64,000 nucleotides of DNA from Microbacterium sp. cf046 (GTDB taxonomy: Bacteria > Actinomycetota > Actinomycetes > Actinomycetales > Microbacteriaceae). The notes beneath the pieces were generated by a model that saw nothing but the letters and a program-made list of their open reading frames with translations, was not told the DNA's origin and ran no database searches. The DNA lies in the NCBI RefSeq assembly GCF_900114345.1, contig NZ_FOZJ01000001.1, positions 744,001 to 808,000 on the forward strand. The letters are read 5' to 3'. Shown here in pieces: positions 26,814-31,836 of this stretch; the stretch's first letter is position 1, and every line of letters begins with the position of its first letter. The translations under genes and the position numbers were made by a program.

Positions 26814-27954
26814 AACCTCTTCGAATGAGCAGGTCACGATTCTGGCGGTCGACGACCTGCCGCAGAACCTCCGCCTGCTCGACGCGGTCCTCAGTCCGCG
26901 GGGATACCGGGTGCTCACCGCGACCTCCGGCGAGGAGGCGCTCGCGATGCTGCCGGCATCCGGCGTCGATCTGGTGCTGCTCGACATCCTGATGCCGGGG
27001 ATGGACGGCTACGAGGTGTGCCGCCGGATCCGCAGCACACCGGGCCTGGAGTTCCTCCCGGTGGTGATGATCACCGCCAGCGGCGACCAGGAGAAGATCC
27101 GTGCGATCGAAGCGGGGGCAGATGACTTCGTGAGCAAGCCGCTCAACCAGGGCGAGCTGCTCGCACGGGTCGCCTCGCTCGCCCGGGTGAAGCGCTACCA
27201 GGACACGATCGAGCGGCAGTCCTCCGAACTGGCCGAGTGGAACACCGAGCTCGAGGCGCGGGTGCAGGCGCAGGTGGATGAGTTGCAGCGGGTCAATCGG
27301 CTCCGCAGGTTCCTGTCGCCGCAGCTGGTCGACGTGATCATCGACTCCGGCGACGAGGCCTTCCTCGCCAGCCACCGGCGCGAGATCGTCGTGCTCTTCT
27401 GCGATCTGCGCGGATTCACTCCGTTCGCTGAATCGAGCGAGCCCGAAGAGGTGATGGGCGTGCTGTCGGAGTACCACACCGCGCTCGGCGAGCTGATCTA
27501 CCGGTACGAGGGCACCCTCGAGCGGTTCACCGGCGATGGGCTCATGGTGTTCTTCAACGATCCGCTGCCTGTCGACGACGCCGCCGATCGGGCCGTCACC
27601 ATGGCGGTCGCGATGCGCGACCGGGTCGCCGAGCTCGCGGCCGGCTGGAGTCGGCGCGGTCATGATCTCGGATTCGGGATCGGCATCGCCCAGGGCTTCG
27701 CGACGCTCGGCCGGATCGGTTTCGAGGGGCGCTTCGACTACGCGGCGATCGGCAGCGTCACGAATCTGGCGGCACGGCTGTGCGGCGAGGCGGCATCGGG
27801 ACAGGTGCTCGTCGCGCAGCGCGTGTTCTCGGCCACCGAAGGCCTCGCGATCGGCGAGCCGGTCGGCGAGCTCGATCTGCGCGGGTTCAGCAGGCCCATC
27901 CGGGCTTTCGATGTGACCGGCATCGACCAATCGAAGGCGAAGGTCATCCCATGA
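26803..27954 (+). CDS. Response regulator with class III nucleotide cyclase output domain
   Basis: A 383-aa protein. The receiver (10-125) has VDD, acceptor Asp61 (VLLDILMPGMDG) and Lys in FVSKPL. A coiled coil follows at ~128-170 (RYQDTIERQSSELAEWNTELEAR...), then the cyclase at ~175-370. Metal-binding Asp residues are in LFCDLRGFT and FTGDGLMVFF, and the Asn-Arg transition-state pair in VTNLAARL. The position that is usually the adenine-recognising Lys is Arg in LERFTGDG, and no canonical Asp partner is seen, so the nucleotide made is uncertain. Phosphorylation of the receiver would control dimerisation through the coiled coil. Its stop overlaps the ATP-grasp gene (ATGA). Confidence 0.9.
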   Translation: MPPETSSNEQVTILAVDDLPQNLRLLDAVLSPRGYRVLTATSGEEALAMLPASGVDLVLLDILMPGMDGYEVCRRIRSTPGLEFLPVVMITASGDQEKIRAIEAGADDFVSKPLNQGELLARVASLARVKRYQDTIERQSSELAEWNTELEARVQAQVDELQRVNRLRRFLSPQLVDVIIDSGDEAFLASHRREIVVLFCDLRGFTPFAESSEPEEVMGVLSEYHTALGELIYRYEGTLERFTGDGLMVFFNDPLPVDDAADRAVTMAVAMRDRVAELAAGWSRRGHDLGFGIGIAQGFATLGRIGFEGRFDYAAIGSVTNLAARLCGEAASGQVLVAQRVFSATEGLAIGEPVGELDLRGFSRPIRAFDVTGIDQSKAKVIP

Positions 27955-29528
27955 CGACAATCGAGACGGCCGAGGCCGTCGCCACCCTCTCGGACCTCGA
28001 CGACGCCGAGCGGATCGCGAGATTCCAGCTGCTGCAGGACCGGATGCCGTCGGTCTGGGACTCCATGAAGCACGAACTCGATGACGAATCGGTCGTGGTG
28101 ATCCCCTCCGTCACGCCGAGCGCCACGACCGGGAGCGGCAGCACCACCCAGGCGTACGAGGAGCGGTTCCTCTTCCTGCTCCTGCTGCTGCGCCAGCCCC
28201 GGCTGCGGATGATCTACGTCACCTCGATGCCGATCGACCCGAGGATCGTGGAGTACTACCTGGCGCTGCTGCCGGGCGTCATCCCGAGCCACGCGCTCGC
28301 CCGGCTGACCCTGATGTCGGTGGGCGACGCCTCGGTGCGGCCCCTCAGCGTCAAACTGCTCGAGCGCCCCCAGCTGCTCGCGCGCATCGCGGAACGCATC
28401 CCGAACCGCTCGCGCAGCCACCTGATCCCCTACAACACGACCGACCTGGAGCGCGACATCGCCGTGACGCTCGGCATCCCGATGTACGGGGCGGATCCGC
28501 GGCTCGCGCCGCTCGGCACCAAGACCGGGTGCCGTCGCCTGTTCGGCGAGGTGGGCGTGGTCTACCCGCTCGGCATCGAAGACCTGCACAGCCTCGACGA
28601 CGTGGCGGAAGCGATCGACGGGATGCTCGAGACCAGGCCGACCATGGGCCAGGTGATCGTGAAGCTGAACGACGGGGTGTCCGGAACGGGCAACGCGCTC
28701 GTCGAACTGGCAGGGATCGGGGAGGTCCCCGCCGCGGAGCGACGCGCGGCGATCCTGGAGCGGGTCAGGGCGATGCAGTTCGAATCGCCCAGCATCCCGT
28801 TCGACTGGTACGTCGACAAGCTCGCCTCCGACGGCGGCATCGTCGAGGAGCGCATCGTCGGCGAGGACCTGCTCAGCCCGAGTGTGCAGCTTCGGGTGCG
28901 ACCCGACGGCAGCGTGGAGCTGCTCTCGACGCACGACCAGCTGCTCGGCGGCAAGAGCGGGCAGAGCTACCTCGGCTGCACCTTCCCCGCGGACCCGGCG
29001 TACTCGCGCCTGATCAGCGAGCCCGGAATGGCGATCGGGCAGCGCCTCGCGCGGGAGGGCGTGATCGGCCGGTTCGCCGTGGACTTCGTGGTCGTCCGGG
29101 ATGCCGAGGGCCGTTGGTCTGCGTACGCGATCGAGCTGAACCTGCGCAAGGGCGGCACGACGCATCCGTTCCTCACGCTGCAGTTCCTGACCGATGGCAC
29201 CTATGATGCGGAGTCCGGACGCTTCGTGACCCGCGAGGGCGATGAGAAGCACCTCGTCGCGACCGATCACCTCGAGGCCGACGAGCTGCGAGCGCTGTCG
29301 GTCGGAGACCTGTTCGACGCCGTCGCCAGGCACGGCCTGCACTTCGATCAGTCGCGGCAGGCGGGCATCGTCTTCCACATGATCAGCTGCCTCACCGAGC
29401 ACGGGCGCGTCGGCATGACGGCGGTCGGCGACACCCCCGAGCAGGCGATGGAGCTGTACGAGCGCGCACAGCGCGTGCTGCTCGACGAAGCCCGTGCCGC
29501 CCGCCGCGAGAACCCGCTGCCCGACTGA
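27951..29528 (+). CDS. ATP-grasp ligase, peptide ligase PGM1-related
   Basis: A 525-aa protein resembling the carboxylate-amine ligases named after PGM1 of pheganomycin biosynthesis. N-terminal ~190 residues form a Rossmann-like part with LLLLLRQPRLRMIYVTSMPID and NRSRSHLIPYNTTDLERDIAVTLGIPMYG. The ATP-grasp core has MGQVIVKLNDGVSGTGNALV (P-loop-like glycine strand), an EERIVGED strand, LSPSVQLRVRPDG and metal ligands in AIELNLRKGGTTHP. PGM1 joins amino acids to peptide carboxyls; the substrates here are unknown. It is translationally coupled to the cyclase, so a ligase reaction seems to be an output or partner of this signalling operon. Only 9 nt separate its end from the convergent transsulfuration gene. 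Confidence 0.85.
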   Translation: MTTIETAEAVATLSDLDDAERIARFQLLQDRMPSVWDSMKHELDDESVVVIPSVTPSATTGSGSTTQAYEERFLFLLLLLRQPRLRMIYVTSMPIDPRIVEYYLALLPGVIPSHALARLTLMSVGDASVRPLSVKLLERPQLLARIAERIPNRSRSHLIPYNTTDLERDIAVTLGIPMYGADPRLAPLGTKTGCRRLFGEVGVVYPLGIEDLHSLDDVAEAIDGMLETRPTMGQVIVKLNDGVSGTGNALVELAGIGEVPAAERRAAILERVRAMQFESPSIPFDWYVDKLASDGGIVEERIVGEDLLSPSVQLRVRPDGSVELLSTHDQLLGGKSGQSYLGCTFPADPAYSRLISEPGMAIGQRLAREGVIGRFAVDFVVVRDAEGRWSAYAIELNLRKGGTTHPFLTLQFLTDGTYDAESGRFVTREGDEKHLVATDHLEADELRALSVGDLFDAVARHGLHFDQSRQAGIVFHMISCLTEHGRVGMTAVGDTPEQAMELYERAQRVLLDEARAARRENPLPD

Positions 29529-29537
29529 TCGGGCGTC

Positions 29538-30698
29538 TCACAGCTTGTCGAGCGCGCGTTCGAGGTCGGCCAGCAGGTCGTCGACGCTCTCGATGCCGAC
29601 CGAGAGACGCACGACCTCTTCCGGGACGGCGAGCTCGGTGCCACGCACCGAGGCATGGGTCATCTCGTCGGGATGGTTGACGAGCGACTCCACGCCGCCG
29701 AGCGATTCGGCCAGCTGGAACAGCCTGGTCGACTCCGCGAACTTCCGCGCCGCCTTGCCGTCCGCGAGGGCGAGCGAGACGATGCCGCCGAAGGCCGACA
29801 TCTGGCGGGCGGCGAGCTCGTGCCCCGGGTGCGACTTCAGCCCCGGATAGTACACACGCGCGACGCGGTCGTGGCCCTCCAGGAAGTCCGCGACGGCCGT
29901 CGCGTTCTCACTGTGACGCTGCATGCGGATGCCGAGGGTCTTGATCCCGCGGGTGGTGAGCCACGCGTCGAGGGGTCCGGAGACGGCGCCGGCCGCGAAC
30001 TGCAGGAATCGCGCGCCCTCCGCCACCTTGTCGTCGTCGATCACCAGTGCGCCGCCGACGACGTCCGAGTGGCCGCCGAGGTACTTGGTCGCGGAGTGGA
30101 CGACGACGTCGGCGCCCAGGCCCAGGGGCTGCTGCAGCGCCGGGGAGGCGAACGTGTTATCGACCACGACCAGGGCGCCGGCATCCTTCCCCAATCGCGC
30201 CAGGCCCGCGATGTCGGTGATCCGCAGCAGGGGATTGCTCGGCGTCTCGACCCACAGGATCCGCGCCGGGCGCTCTTCGAGGGCGGCGGCGACCGCATCC
30301 AGATCGCTCATGTCGACGATGCGCAGTCCGACTCCCCACGGGCCGAGGATCCGCGCGATCAGCCGATAGGTGCCCCCGTAGACGTCGTTGCCGAGCAGCA
30401 CCTCGTCGCCCGGTCCGAGGACCGAGCGCAGCAGCGCGTCCTCGGCGGCCAGACCGGACGAGAACGAGAGTCCGTGCTTTCCGCCCTCGATCGCGGCGAG
30501 CTGGGTTTCCAGGGCGGTGCGCGTCGGGTTGCCGCTGCGCCCGTACTCGTAGCCCTGTCGAAGACCGCCTATGCCGTCCTGGGCATATGTCGTGGAGAAG
30601 TGCACGGGCGGGATGACCGCGCCCGTCGTCGGGTCGAATGCCTGGCCGGCGTGCACCGCGAGGCTGTCGAACCCGTGCGCCGGGATGTGGGCGGTCAT
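29538..30698 (-). CDS. metB: Cystathionine gamma-synthase/gamma-lyase (Cys/Met PLP enzyme)
   Basis: A 386-aa fold-type I enzyme. Motifs: TTYAQDG, YEYGRSGNPTR (Tyr and Arg contacting PLP phosphate from the neighbour subunit), SSGLAAEDALL, VVDNTFASPALQQPL and SATKYLGGHSD with the Schiff-base Lys, then the C-terminal SLGGVESLVNHP. Actinobacterial proteins annotated MetB often act as cystathionine gamma-lyase. Here the gene is coupled (ATGA) behind a cystathionine beta-synthase, and a Cys-rich leader lies upstream, so the reverse transsulfuration direction (cysteine from homocysteine) is favoured. The symbol reflects family naming, not proven direction. Confidence 0.9.
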   Translation of the reverse strand: MTAHIPAHGFDSLAVHAGQAFDPTTGAVIPPVHFSTTYAQDGIGGLRQGYEYGRSGNPTRTALETQLAAIEGGKHGLSFSSGLAAEDALLRSVLGPGDEVLLGNDVYGGTYRLIARILGPWGVGLRIVDMSDLDAVAAALEERPARILWVETPSNPLLRITDIAGLARLGKDAGALVVVDNTFASPALQQPLGLGADVVVHSATKYLGGHSDVVGGALVIDDDKVAEGARFLQFAAGAVSGPLDAWLTTRGIKTLGIRMQRHSENATAVADFLEGHDRVARVYYPGLKSHPGHELAARQMSAFGGIVSLALADGKAARKFAESTRLFQLAESLGGVESLVNHPDEMTHASVRGTELAVPEEVVRLSVGIESVDDLLADLERALDKL

Positions 30699-31720
30699 GC
30701 GCTGCTCCTCGAGCTCGTGCTCTTCGTCGTGTCGGTTTCGGGCATCGGGTCGGGTGCCGGTGGATCGACGTCGAACCCGCGCTGCCGCATCCAGTCGTCG
30801 TTGAAGATCTTGCTGACGTACGAGCGTCCGTGATCGGGAAGCAGCACGACCACAACGGCCTCCTCGGGAAGGTCGCGTGCCGTGCGCAGCGCGCCCACGA
30901 CCGCCATCCCGCTCGAACCGCCGACGAGCAGGCCCTCTTCGCGCGCGAGCCGGCGGGTCATCGCGAACGCCTCCGCATCCCCGACCCGCTGGTATTCGTG
31001 AACGACGGTGGGGTCGAACGTCTCGGGCCAGAAGTCCTCGCCGACGCCCTCGACCGCGTATCCGTGGATCGGGCCGCCCGAGTAGATCGAGCCCTCGGGG
31101 TCGACTCCGATGACCCGCACGGTGTCCTGCGAGAGCTCCCGCAGGTAGCGGCCGGTGCCGGTGATGGTGCCACCGGTGCCGATGCCGGCGACGAAGTGCG
31201 TGACGAGGCCGTCGGTGTCGCGCCAGATCTCCGGACCGGTGGTCTCGAAGTGGCCGCGCGGGCCGTTCTGGTTCGCGAACTGGTTCGGCTTGAACGCACC
31301 GGGGATCTCCCGTGCCAGCCGGTCGGAGACGCTGTAATAGGAGCGCGGGTCGTCTGGTTCGACGTGCGTCTCGGTCACGACGACTTCGGCGCCGTACGCC
31401 CGCAGCACGTCGACCTTCTCGCCCGCGAACTTGTCGGGCACGACGAAGATCATCCGGTAGCCGCGCTGGAGTGCCACGAGGGCCAGCCCGACTCCGGTGT
31501 TGCCGCTGGTCGGCTCGACGATCGTGCCGCCGGGGCGGAGCAGCCCGTCGCGCTCCGCGGCATCGACGATGATCCGCGCGATGCGGTCCTTCGCCGAGCC
31601 GCCGGGATTGAAGTACTCGACCTTGGCGAGCACGGTGGCGCGGATGCCGGTGGTGACGTGGTTCAGTCGAACGAGGGGGGTGTTGCCGACCAGATCGGCA
31701 ACGCTGTTGGCGTATCGCAC
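30695..31720 (-). CDS. cbs: Cystathionine beta-synthase
   Basis: A 341-aa fold-type II PLP enzyme. NTPLVRLN opens the domain, FNPGGSAKDR carries the Schiff-base Lys, and PTSGNTGVGLA plus GIGTGGTITGTG bind substrate carboxylate and PLP phosphate. An EGVGEDFWPETFDP segment and a C-terminal VVLLPDHGRSYVSKIFND follow, both more CBS- than CysK-like. There are no C-terminal regulatory CBS domains, unlike the human enzyme. The GTG at the start of VRYANSVADLVGN is chosen; the open frame continues upstream through the leader region. Makes cystathionine from homocysteine and serine. A Cys-rich leader peptide and a hairpin upstream suggest attenuation by cysteine. Confidence 0.9.
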   Translation of the reverse strand: MRYANSVADLVGNTPLVRLNHVTTGIRATVLAKVEYFNPGGSAKDRIARIIVDAAERDGLLRPGGTIVEPTSGNTGVGLALVALQRGYRMIFVVPDKFAGEKVDVLRAYGAEVVVTETHVEPDDPRSYYSVSDRLAREIPGAFKPNQFANQNGPRGHFETTGPEIWRDTDGLVTHFVAGIGTGGTITGTGRYLRELSQDTVRVIGVDPEGSIYSGGPIHGYAVEGVGEDFWPETFDPTVVHEYQRVGDAEAFAMTRRLAREEGLLVGGSSGMAVVGALRTARDLPEEAVVVVLLPDHGRSYVSKIFNDDWMRQRGFDVDPPAPDPMPETDTTKSTSSRSSA

Positions 31721-31741
31721 GGTGGTGTCCTGTAGGGAAAG

Positions 31742-31762
31742 GCCGCGCGTCAGAGGCGCGGC
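31742..31762 (-). terminator. Attenuator-like hairpin ahead of cbs
   Basis: Read leftward, GCCGCGC-CTCTGAC-GCGCGGC forms a 7-bp GC stem with a 7-nt loop, followed by CCTTTCCC, and ends about 20 nt before the cbs GTG. It lies between the Cys-rich leader ORF and cbs, the position of a transcription attenuator. The T-run is weak, so it could also act at the level of translation. A competing antiterminator was not proven by eye. Confidence 0.45.
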
Positions 31763-31797
31763 AGCTGTCGGGGGTCGTCGAGGCGAGTGCGAGGCAC

Positions 31798-31824
31798 TCA
31801 GCGACAACAACGACAGGTCAGCAC
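31798..31824 (-). CDS. Leaderless Cys-rich leader peptide MLTCRCCR
   Basis: GTG CTG ACC TGT CGT TGT TGT CGC TGA encodes eight residues with three Cys, two of them consecutive, and uses TGT for each. TACGCT ends six bases before the GTG, so transcription should begin at the start codon. Short polycysteine leaderless frames are known in mycobacteria to sense cysteinyl-tRNA and attenuate downstream sulfur genes. Here it lies 77 nt ahead of cbs-metB, with a GC hairpin between. This frame is too short for ordinary gene callers. Confidence 0.75.
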   Translation of the reverse strand: MLTCRCCR

Positions 31825-31830
31825 GGATTC

Positions 31831-31836
31831 AGCGTA
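31831..31836 (-). promoter_or_regulatory. -10 box (TACGCT) of the cbs-metB transcript
   Basis: TACGCT on the minus strand ends six bases ahead of the leader-peptide GTG, giving a start site at or next to the G. No convincing -35 is present, which is common for actinobacterial promoters of this sort. Confidence 0.5.

Follow-up and report, generated by a model that had tools for sequence, protein, structure and literature searches.

The window, the whole 64,000-nucleotide stretch that was analysed from the 3.99-Mb source genome of Microbacterium sp. cf046, contains a cbs-metB operon on its minus strand. The cbs gene (30695 to 31720, GTG start at 31720) is preceded by the Shine-Dalgarno (SD) sequence AGGA (31728 to 31731) and encodes a PLP enzyme whose closest relative of solved structure is M. 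tuberculosis Rv1077. Its top curated model was cystathionine beta-synthase, with a score of 484 bits (below the cut-off of 510) and an alignment that stops at position 323 of the 457 model positions. The window protein is a short form, consisting of the PALP domain only, without C-terminal CBS domains. The metB gene (29538 to 30698, minus strand) overlaps the cbs stop (30698/30695); its product belongs to the cystathionine gamma-synthase/gamma-lyase family and matched the cystathionine gamma-synthase model with 633 bits, above the cut-off of 513. Because that model is the one matched and further members of the family are encoded elsewhere in the genome, we only infer whether MetB acts as a synthase or a lyase in the cell. 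The same genome also encodes cysE and two cysK genes, so reverse transsulfuration would provide a second route to cysteine. In our Microbacterium sample, cysE was matched in 149 of 149 genomes at E <= 0.001, with 144 over the cut-off. Beside metB, between 27738 and 29528, long overlapping frames occupy both strands, and the plus-strand frame at 27780 to 29528 resembles what we take to be an ATP-grasp-type ligase.

Upstream of cbs, the initial annotation had described a TACGCT-N6-GTG motif opening the eight-codon frame MLTCRCCR, followed by a GC hairpin. Both can be read directly on the minus strand. The -10 box TACGCT (31831 to 31836) lies 6 bases ahead of an upstream open reading frame (uORF; 31798 to 31824) that starts with the GTG at 31824 and ends with the TGA at 31798, so that box and frame together span 31836 to 31798. 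The codons are GTG CTG ACC TGT CGT TGT TGT CGC TGA, with TGT at all three Cys positions (codons 4, 6 and 7), and the uORF stop is separated from cbs by 77 bases. Judged from the -10/start architecture alone, the uORF is presumably leaderless. The arms of the hairpin, GCCGCGC and GCGCGGC, lie at 31762 to 31756 and 31748 to 31742. A 14-letter pattern had a second match in the same genome.

Conservation of the Cys-rich frame

We scanned cbs upstream regions with a strict rule (TANNNT, 5 to 8 bases, RTG, then 4 to 30 codons containing CC or CxC) and with a relaxed rule that also admits Cys frames lacking a correctly spaced TANNNT box. As controls, the strict rule was applied to the opposite strand of cbs upstream regions and to the inside of the cbs gene, giving no match over 149 loci in either case, and to the opposite strand of 22 further loci from an order-wide sample, again giving no match. 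Among the 149 Microbacterium genomes, cbs was found at E <= 1e-80 in 113 genomes and 114 places. Our counts omit G030 (contig edge), G101 (a second cbs copy, 52% identical) and L359, a long-form locus with only 4 upstream bases; G034, a partial cbs with the frame MSLTCRCRR, was kept outside the short-form set.

Of the 90 Microbacterium cbs genes read first, 76 had a Cys frame upstream, all 76 of them short-form, and 14 had none. With three later loci (L222 to L224), the frame was found at 79 of 79 short-form cbs genes, while the strict rule detected none at the 31 long-form loci with enough upstream sequence. The 76 short-form proteins, read to their ends, have 317 to 404 residues, and all 79 short forms contain PALP; the 32 long-form proteins have 454 to 489 residues from the match start, with PALP in 32 and a CBS domain in 31. 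Downstream of cbs, metB was present at 30 of 30 short-form loci and later at 20 of 20 (17 long, 3 short). One short form, L222 of genome G085 (cbs at 1501 to 2880), has 460 residues, the leader peptide MQTCRCCR and the only CBS-domain match in the set, a weak one (20.3 bits, below the cut-off); it is possibly an intermediate between the two forms.

We dropped one set of candidates from the relaxed scans, SSSxxCCR-type frames at 11 of the 31 long-form loci. Nine of these were re-read (L212 and L214 were left out) and proved to be an alternative frame of a coding stretch, which we take from its translation to be a sugar ABC-transporter permease. The idea that the uORF substitutes for lost CBS domains was also rejected: other Microbacteriaceae genera carry the frame before long-form cbs genes, and the split between short and long forms is therefore a lineage pattern.

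Every one of the 76 uORFs has a TANNNT box, 6 bases from the start in 57 and 7 bases in 19; where several starts were possible, the one with a box was preferred. Most uORFs are eight to eleven codons long, each of the 76 has 2 to 5 Cys codons, and the commonest peptide, MLTCRCCR, accounts for 30 of the 76. Of their 244 Cys codons, 227 are TGT, compared with 4 of 47 in the window genes, a crude reference made up of long GC3-rich frames standing in for genes. This preference could stem from slow decoding, from RNA pairing or from both. Among individual variants, the L224 frame (MFPTCHCCL) is not preceded by a TANNNT box where one is expected and the L082 frame (MHSCRSSCR) has two separate Cys codons outside the CC/CxC rule. 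In addition, a subgroup of four loci (L027, L048, L053 and L056) carries MLTLRCCRR or MLTLRCCRL about 110 bases before cbs. Here, CTT replaces the first Cys codon and one codon has been added, giving a natural two-Cys variant.

Beyond the genus, the strict rule detected the frame at 22 of 49 other Microbacteriaceae cbs loci, in 12 genera; the relaxed rule added 6 loci, for 28 of 49 in 16 genera, and 21 loci had no Cys frame in either scan. The peptides have diverged (MSTVKSCCCCR, MFVIPSCCRR, MNISRSCCRR, MFVNPCCRR at L235 and others), and most finish with Cys and Arg codons. In the order-wide sample, 6 of 22 loci carry a frame, two in Microbacteriaceae and four across two other families, and one of the loci without it, L308, has none within its 212 upstream bases; both this sample and the 49 family loci are part of longer match lists. 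A further set of 80 named loci, with genomes that partly overlap the genus sample, included 19 Microbacterium-like loci, all with the frame (17 by the strict rule and 2 by eye), and three Bifidobacterium loci, also all with it (MTYFSCCCCR, MINRSCCCR and MFNFSCCCCR). No frame was detected by the strict rule at the remaining 58.

The initial annotation had made its proposal depend on conservation of the Cys codons in relatives. Our scans bear this out: Microbacterium retains the codons, and what other genera retain is mainly the Cys codons and the -10 spacing. The observation is real and conserved. In a cbs tree, the short-form genes of Microbacterium and Bifidobacterium form one clade (100/89), with L222 outside it; this clade is the only part of the tree that we use. 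The tree lacks other Microbacteriaceae genera, and its bootstrap support is unsettled. On this evidence, the leaders of the two genera may share ancestry. One locus in the tree, L155, groups with Arthrobacter although its contig is labelled Vibrio cholerae strain 35D, and it is probably a contaminated assembly.

Structure and specificity of the leader RNA

The window leader folds with -49.4 kcal/mol (z -3.94) and is more stable than all 200 of its dinucleotide shuffles. Its elements, all on the minus strand, are a long-range pairing, P0, and two hairpins. In P0a, CUGUCG within the uORF (31811 to 31816) pairs with CGACAG (31765 to 31770), and in P0b, GUUGUCG, also within the uORF (31802 to 31808), pairs with CGACGAC (31774 to 31780). 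P1 (31785 to 31799) lies across the uORF stop codon, and P2, the GC hairpin (31742 to 31762), lies ahead of the SD and is followed by CUUUCCC, which is no real U-run. P1 and P2 occupy these positions in most Microbacterium leaders.

Across the 76 Microbacterium leaders, the P0 helices were paired in 83 to 97% of alignment cells, P1 in 66% and the P2 core in 82%, with the two outer pairs of P2 at only 53%. Changes on both sides of a pair were found in 5 of 6 P1 pairs and 5 of 5 P2 core pairs. The whole structure was 78% paired, compared with 33 to 44% for slid versions, and its number of pairs with two-sided changes was equalled or exceeded in 21 of 500 shuffles. P0 alone, in 40 leaders, was paired in 91% of cells versus 28 to 69% when slid. 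Double changes in P0 are few, and covariation is thin, because its uORF arm is almost fixed by coding. The duplex between a leader's own uORF and its own spacer was matched or beaten in 14 of 20,000 permutations, a test that kinship among the leaders weakens. As a set, leaders outside Microbacterium formed P0 no better than shuffles (5 of 33 at p <= 0.05, mean z -0.65). RNAalifold gave no useful fold on alignment A1, and Rfam gave no match in the window at gathering score.

We then masked leader bases in silico. Masking bases 1 to 22 or more abolished P0, while P1 persisted until 28 or more bases were masked. P2 remained folded under every uORF mask tried, at 0.89 to 0.99 in the window leader, so no switch was seen at P2.

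We used 40 of the 76 leaders to train a covariance model of uORF and P0 (R1) and searched it against the 149 genomes with filters that drop weak matches. It returned 103 rows at E <= 0.1. The 77 best rows and one lower-ranked row, 78 altogether, sit immediately ahead of cbs on the same strand, and the first row elsewhere has an E value of 0.0016. R1 thereby found 78 of the 80 frame-bearing cbs places, 40 of these leaders being its training set. In the genome of the window it has a single match, and the 1.5 kb upstream of the cysK-cysE cluster contain no Cys frame. This suggests that the homocysteine-to-cysteine step, and not the cysK route, is under Cys-codon control in this genome. The initial annotation had proposed that Cys-tRNA governs the making of cysteine from homocysteine, and the presence of the frame before cbs-metB, with none before cysK-cysE, fits a sequence-based proposal of this kind.

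A model for cysteine-responsive control and its rivals

Taking the sequence evidence together, we consider that the leader probably controls the cbs-metB operon as a Cys-tRNA-responsive leader-peptide attenuator. As the architecture would have it, transcription starts at or adjoining the GTG, and 70S ribosomes load at the extreme 5' end and read MLTCRCCR. When Cys-tRNA is ample, the ribosome would complete the uORF and depart, and the freed rare UGU codons would pair with the segment about 18 to 33 bases past the stop to form P0, with P1 and P2 around it, keeping cbs low. When Cys-tRNA is scarce, the ribosome would wait on UGU and cover the 5' arm of P0. With P0 blocked, cbs-metB would be expressed and cysteine made from homocysteine. 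We infer the stalling and its direction. That Cys-tRNA is sensed at the uORF seems to us quite likely. The output is the least certain step of the model: easier translation of cbs is our tentative choice, favored over Rho-dependent termination or message decay because published work describes the mycobacterial relatives as translation attenuators.

Hiding of the SD was not clearly supported. The SD is unpaired with a value of 0.38 when the leader is free and 0.40 with the uORF masked; in a second folding window, masking raised it from 0.35 to 0.48. The leaders' own SDs were no more closed than those of shuffled leaders (0.35 versus 0.34). Pairing between uORF and SD was strong in certain lineages only and was not species-specific, with 7,598 of 20,000 permutations as good. 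SD accessibility, shuffles and permutations together leave SD sequestration with weak support.

The composition of the leader raises a different output, in which Rho would load on the C-rich, G-poor spacer ahead of cbs, with uORF translation or P0 deciding its access. Spacers average 48% C and 23% G, C exceeds G in all 76 leaders, no U-run terminator is present, and Rho was suggested in 2005 for cys and cbs leaders (Seliverstov et al., PMC1262725, in the passages on these leaders). The C-minus-G value of the window leader is 0.247, which only one of the 25 upstream regions used as controls in the window matched, and it is this departure from the other 24 that keeps Rho-dependent attenuation in consideration, though as an unlikely alternative. 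Against it, the cbs upstream regions of other Microbacteriaceae are far less C-skewed (mean 0.067, 49 loci), and a ribosome that stalls and opens P0 would expose the C-rich segment rather than hide it, so that the sign of regulation comes out wrong unless an extra step is added. Classical transcription attenuation, in which P2 would serve as the intrinsic terminator, could claim a strong GC hairpin whose core pairs have all changed on both sides. Yet only 1 of 76 leaders has a TTTT in the 45 bases that precede cbs, and without a U-run after it P2 is no ordinary terminator. Moreover, P2 is insensitive to uORF masking, and neither an alternative fold abolishing it nor a mutually exclusive antiterminator was seen under any uORF mask. 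We regard this explanation as unsupported and very improbable.

Alternatively, the frame might set message stability or re-initiation, with a ribosome that stays at the start of the leaderless message protecting it or with P1 and P2 blocking ribosomes that have terminated. The position of the frame at the presumed 5' end, and of P1 on the stop and P2 before the SD in most Microbacterium leaders, would suit such a role; it leaves the pairing of the Cys codons in P0 unexplained, and we rate it as distinctly unlikely. The short frame could also be a nonregulatory by-product of a conserved promoter or RNA sequence. Part of the uORF doubles as an arm of P0, and within Microbacterium the need to pair could be enough to keep it conserved, but diverged genera retain a Cys-rich frame with other codons around it and the same -10 spacing, and the controls gave zero. 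This makes a by-product exceedingly improbable. One further reading keeps the Cys-tRNA-responsive attenuator and makes the UGU codons themselves the switch: these rare codons would be retained because their block forms an arm of P0, which a ribosome awaiting Cys-tRNA keeps open, and P0 would set cbs expression with neither a terminator nor SD hiding, by way of access for Rho, decay from the 5' end or a standby site, in an arrangement that is old in Microbacteriaceae and Bifidobacterium. We hold this version to be possible but rather doubtful; if true, it would add a third kind of output to those of amino-acid attenuation.

Relation to known cysteine leaders

Placement of a Cys leader at cbs is not new. 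The relevant passages of Seliverstov et al. (2005, PMC1262725) predict a Cys leader peptide for cbs of Bifidobacterium longum and others for cys operons of Mycobacterium and Propionibacterium acnes, and describe no obvious terminators in these leaders, suggesting Rho. The B. longum leader described there resembles that of Microbacterium in its short frame, its Cys codons near the stop and its lack of an obvious terminator. The three Bifidobacterium loci studied here, which do not include B. longum itself, share with Microbacterium a Cys-run frame ahead of the orthologous cbs and a TANNNT box seven bases upstream; they differ in their peptides and in the distance from stop to cbs, about 300 bases compared with 77 in the window. 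The 2005 account is a prediction, and its passages on these leaders contain neither the leaderless architecture nor P0 and P2 as described here for Microbacterium. A literature search for leaders of this type, whether at cbs or in Microbacterium, returned none naming them, a search that would also miss the 2005 paper.

The statement in the initial annotation that leaderless polycysteine frames are known at mycobacterial sulfur genes agrees with the literature. Shell et al. (2015, PMC4633059) reported leaderless Cys-rich uORFs in mycobacteria, and the targets given in the passages concerned are cysA2, Rv0485 and nirA, with cbs not named. Canestrari et al. (2020) described leaderless polycysteine sORF attenuators of mycobacteria that are cysteine-dependent according to papers citing the work, and the descriptions available in such papers call them translation attenuators. 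The Microbacterium leaders share with these sORFs several conserved Cys codons and a position before sulfur genes (cbs-metB), and the architecture predicts that they would likewise have a leaderless start. In contrast to the mycobacterial sORFs, they have cbs as their target, a frame of mostly eight to eleven codons, and UGU codons inside a foldable helix. Given the B. longum prediction and the mycobacterial attenuators, we assign the Microbacterium cbs leader to this known type, as a deeply conserved branch that had been little described. A similar principle is seen in the LEU element of leuA in Actinobacteria, where, in the description given in PMC1262725, a run of amino-acid codons also pairs with downstream RNA; there the amino acid is leucine and the codon run pairs with the SD, a pairing not clearly supported in Microbacterium.

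The Microbacterium leader would make cysteine attenuation testable in that genus. The tens of Microbacterium leaders, together with diverged ones from 16 other Microbacteriaceae genera, form a comparative set that could help work out the output step of leaderless polycysteine attenuators. Among the diverged leaders, four loci from three genera (L263 to L266) carry MINTRLCCCCL and similar Cys frames followed by a hairpin on the TAG stop. A downstream ACAACA-type segment appears complementary to their UGU run, and this pairing beats nearly all shuffles only in L263 and L264.
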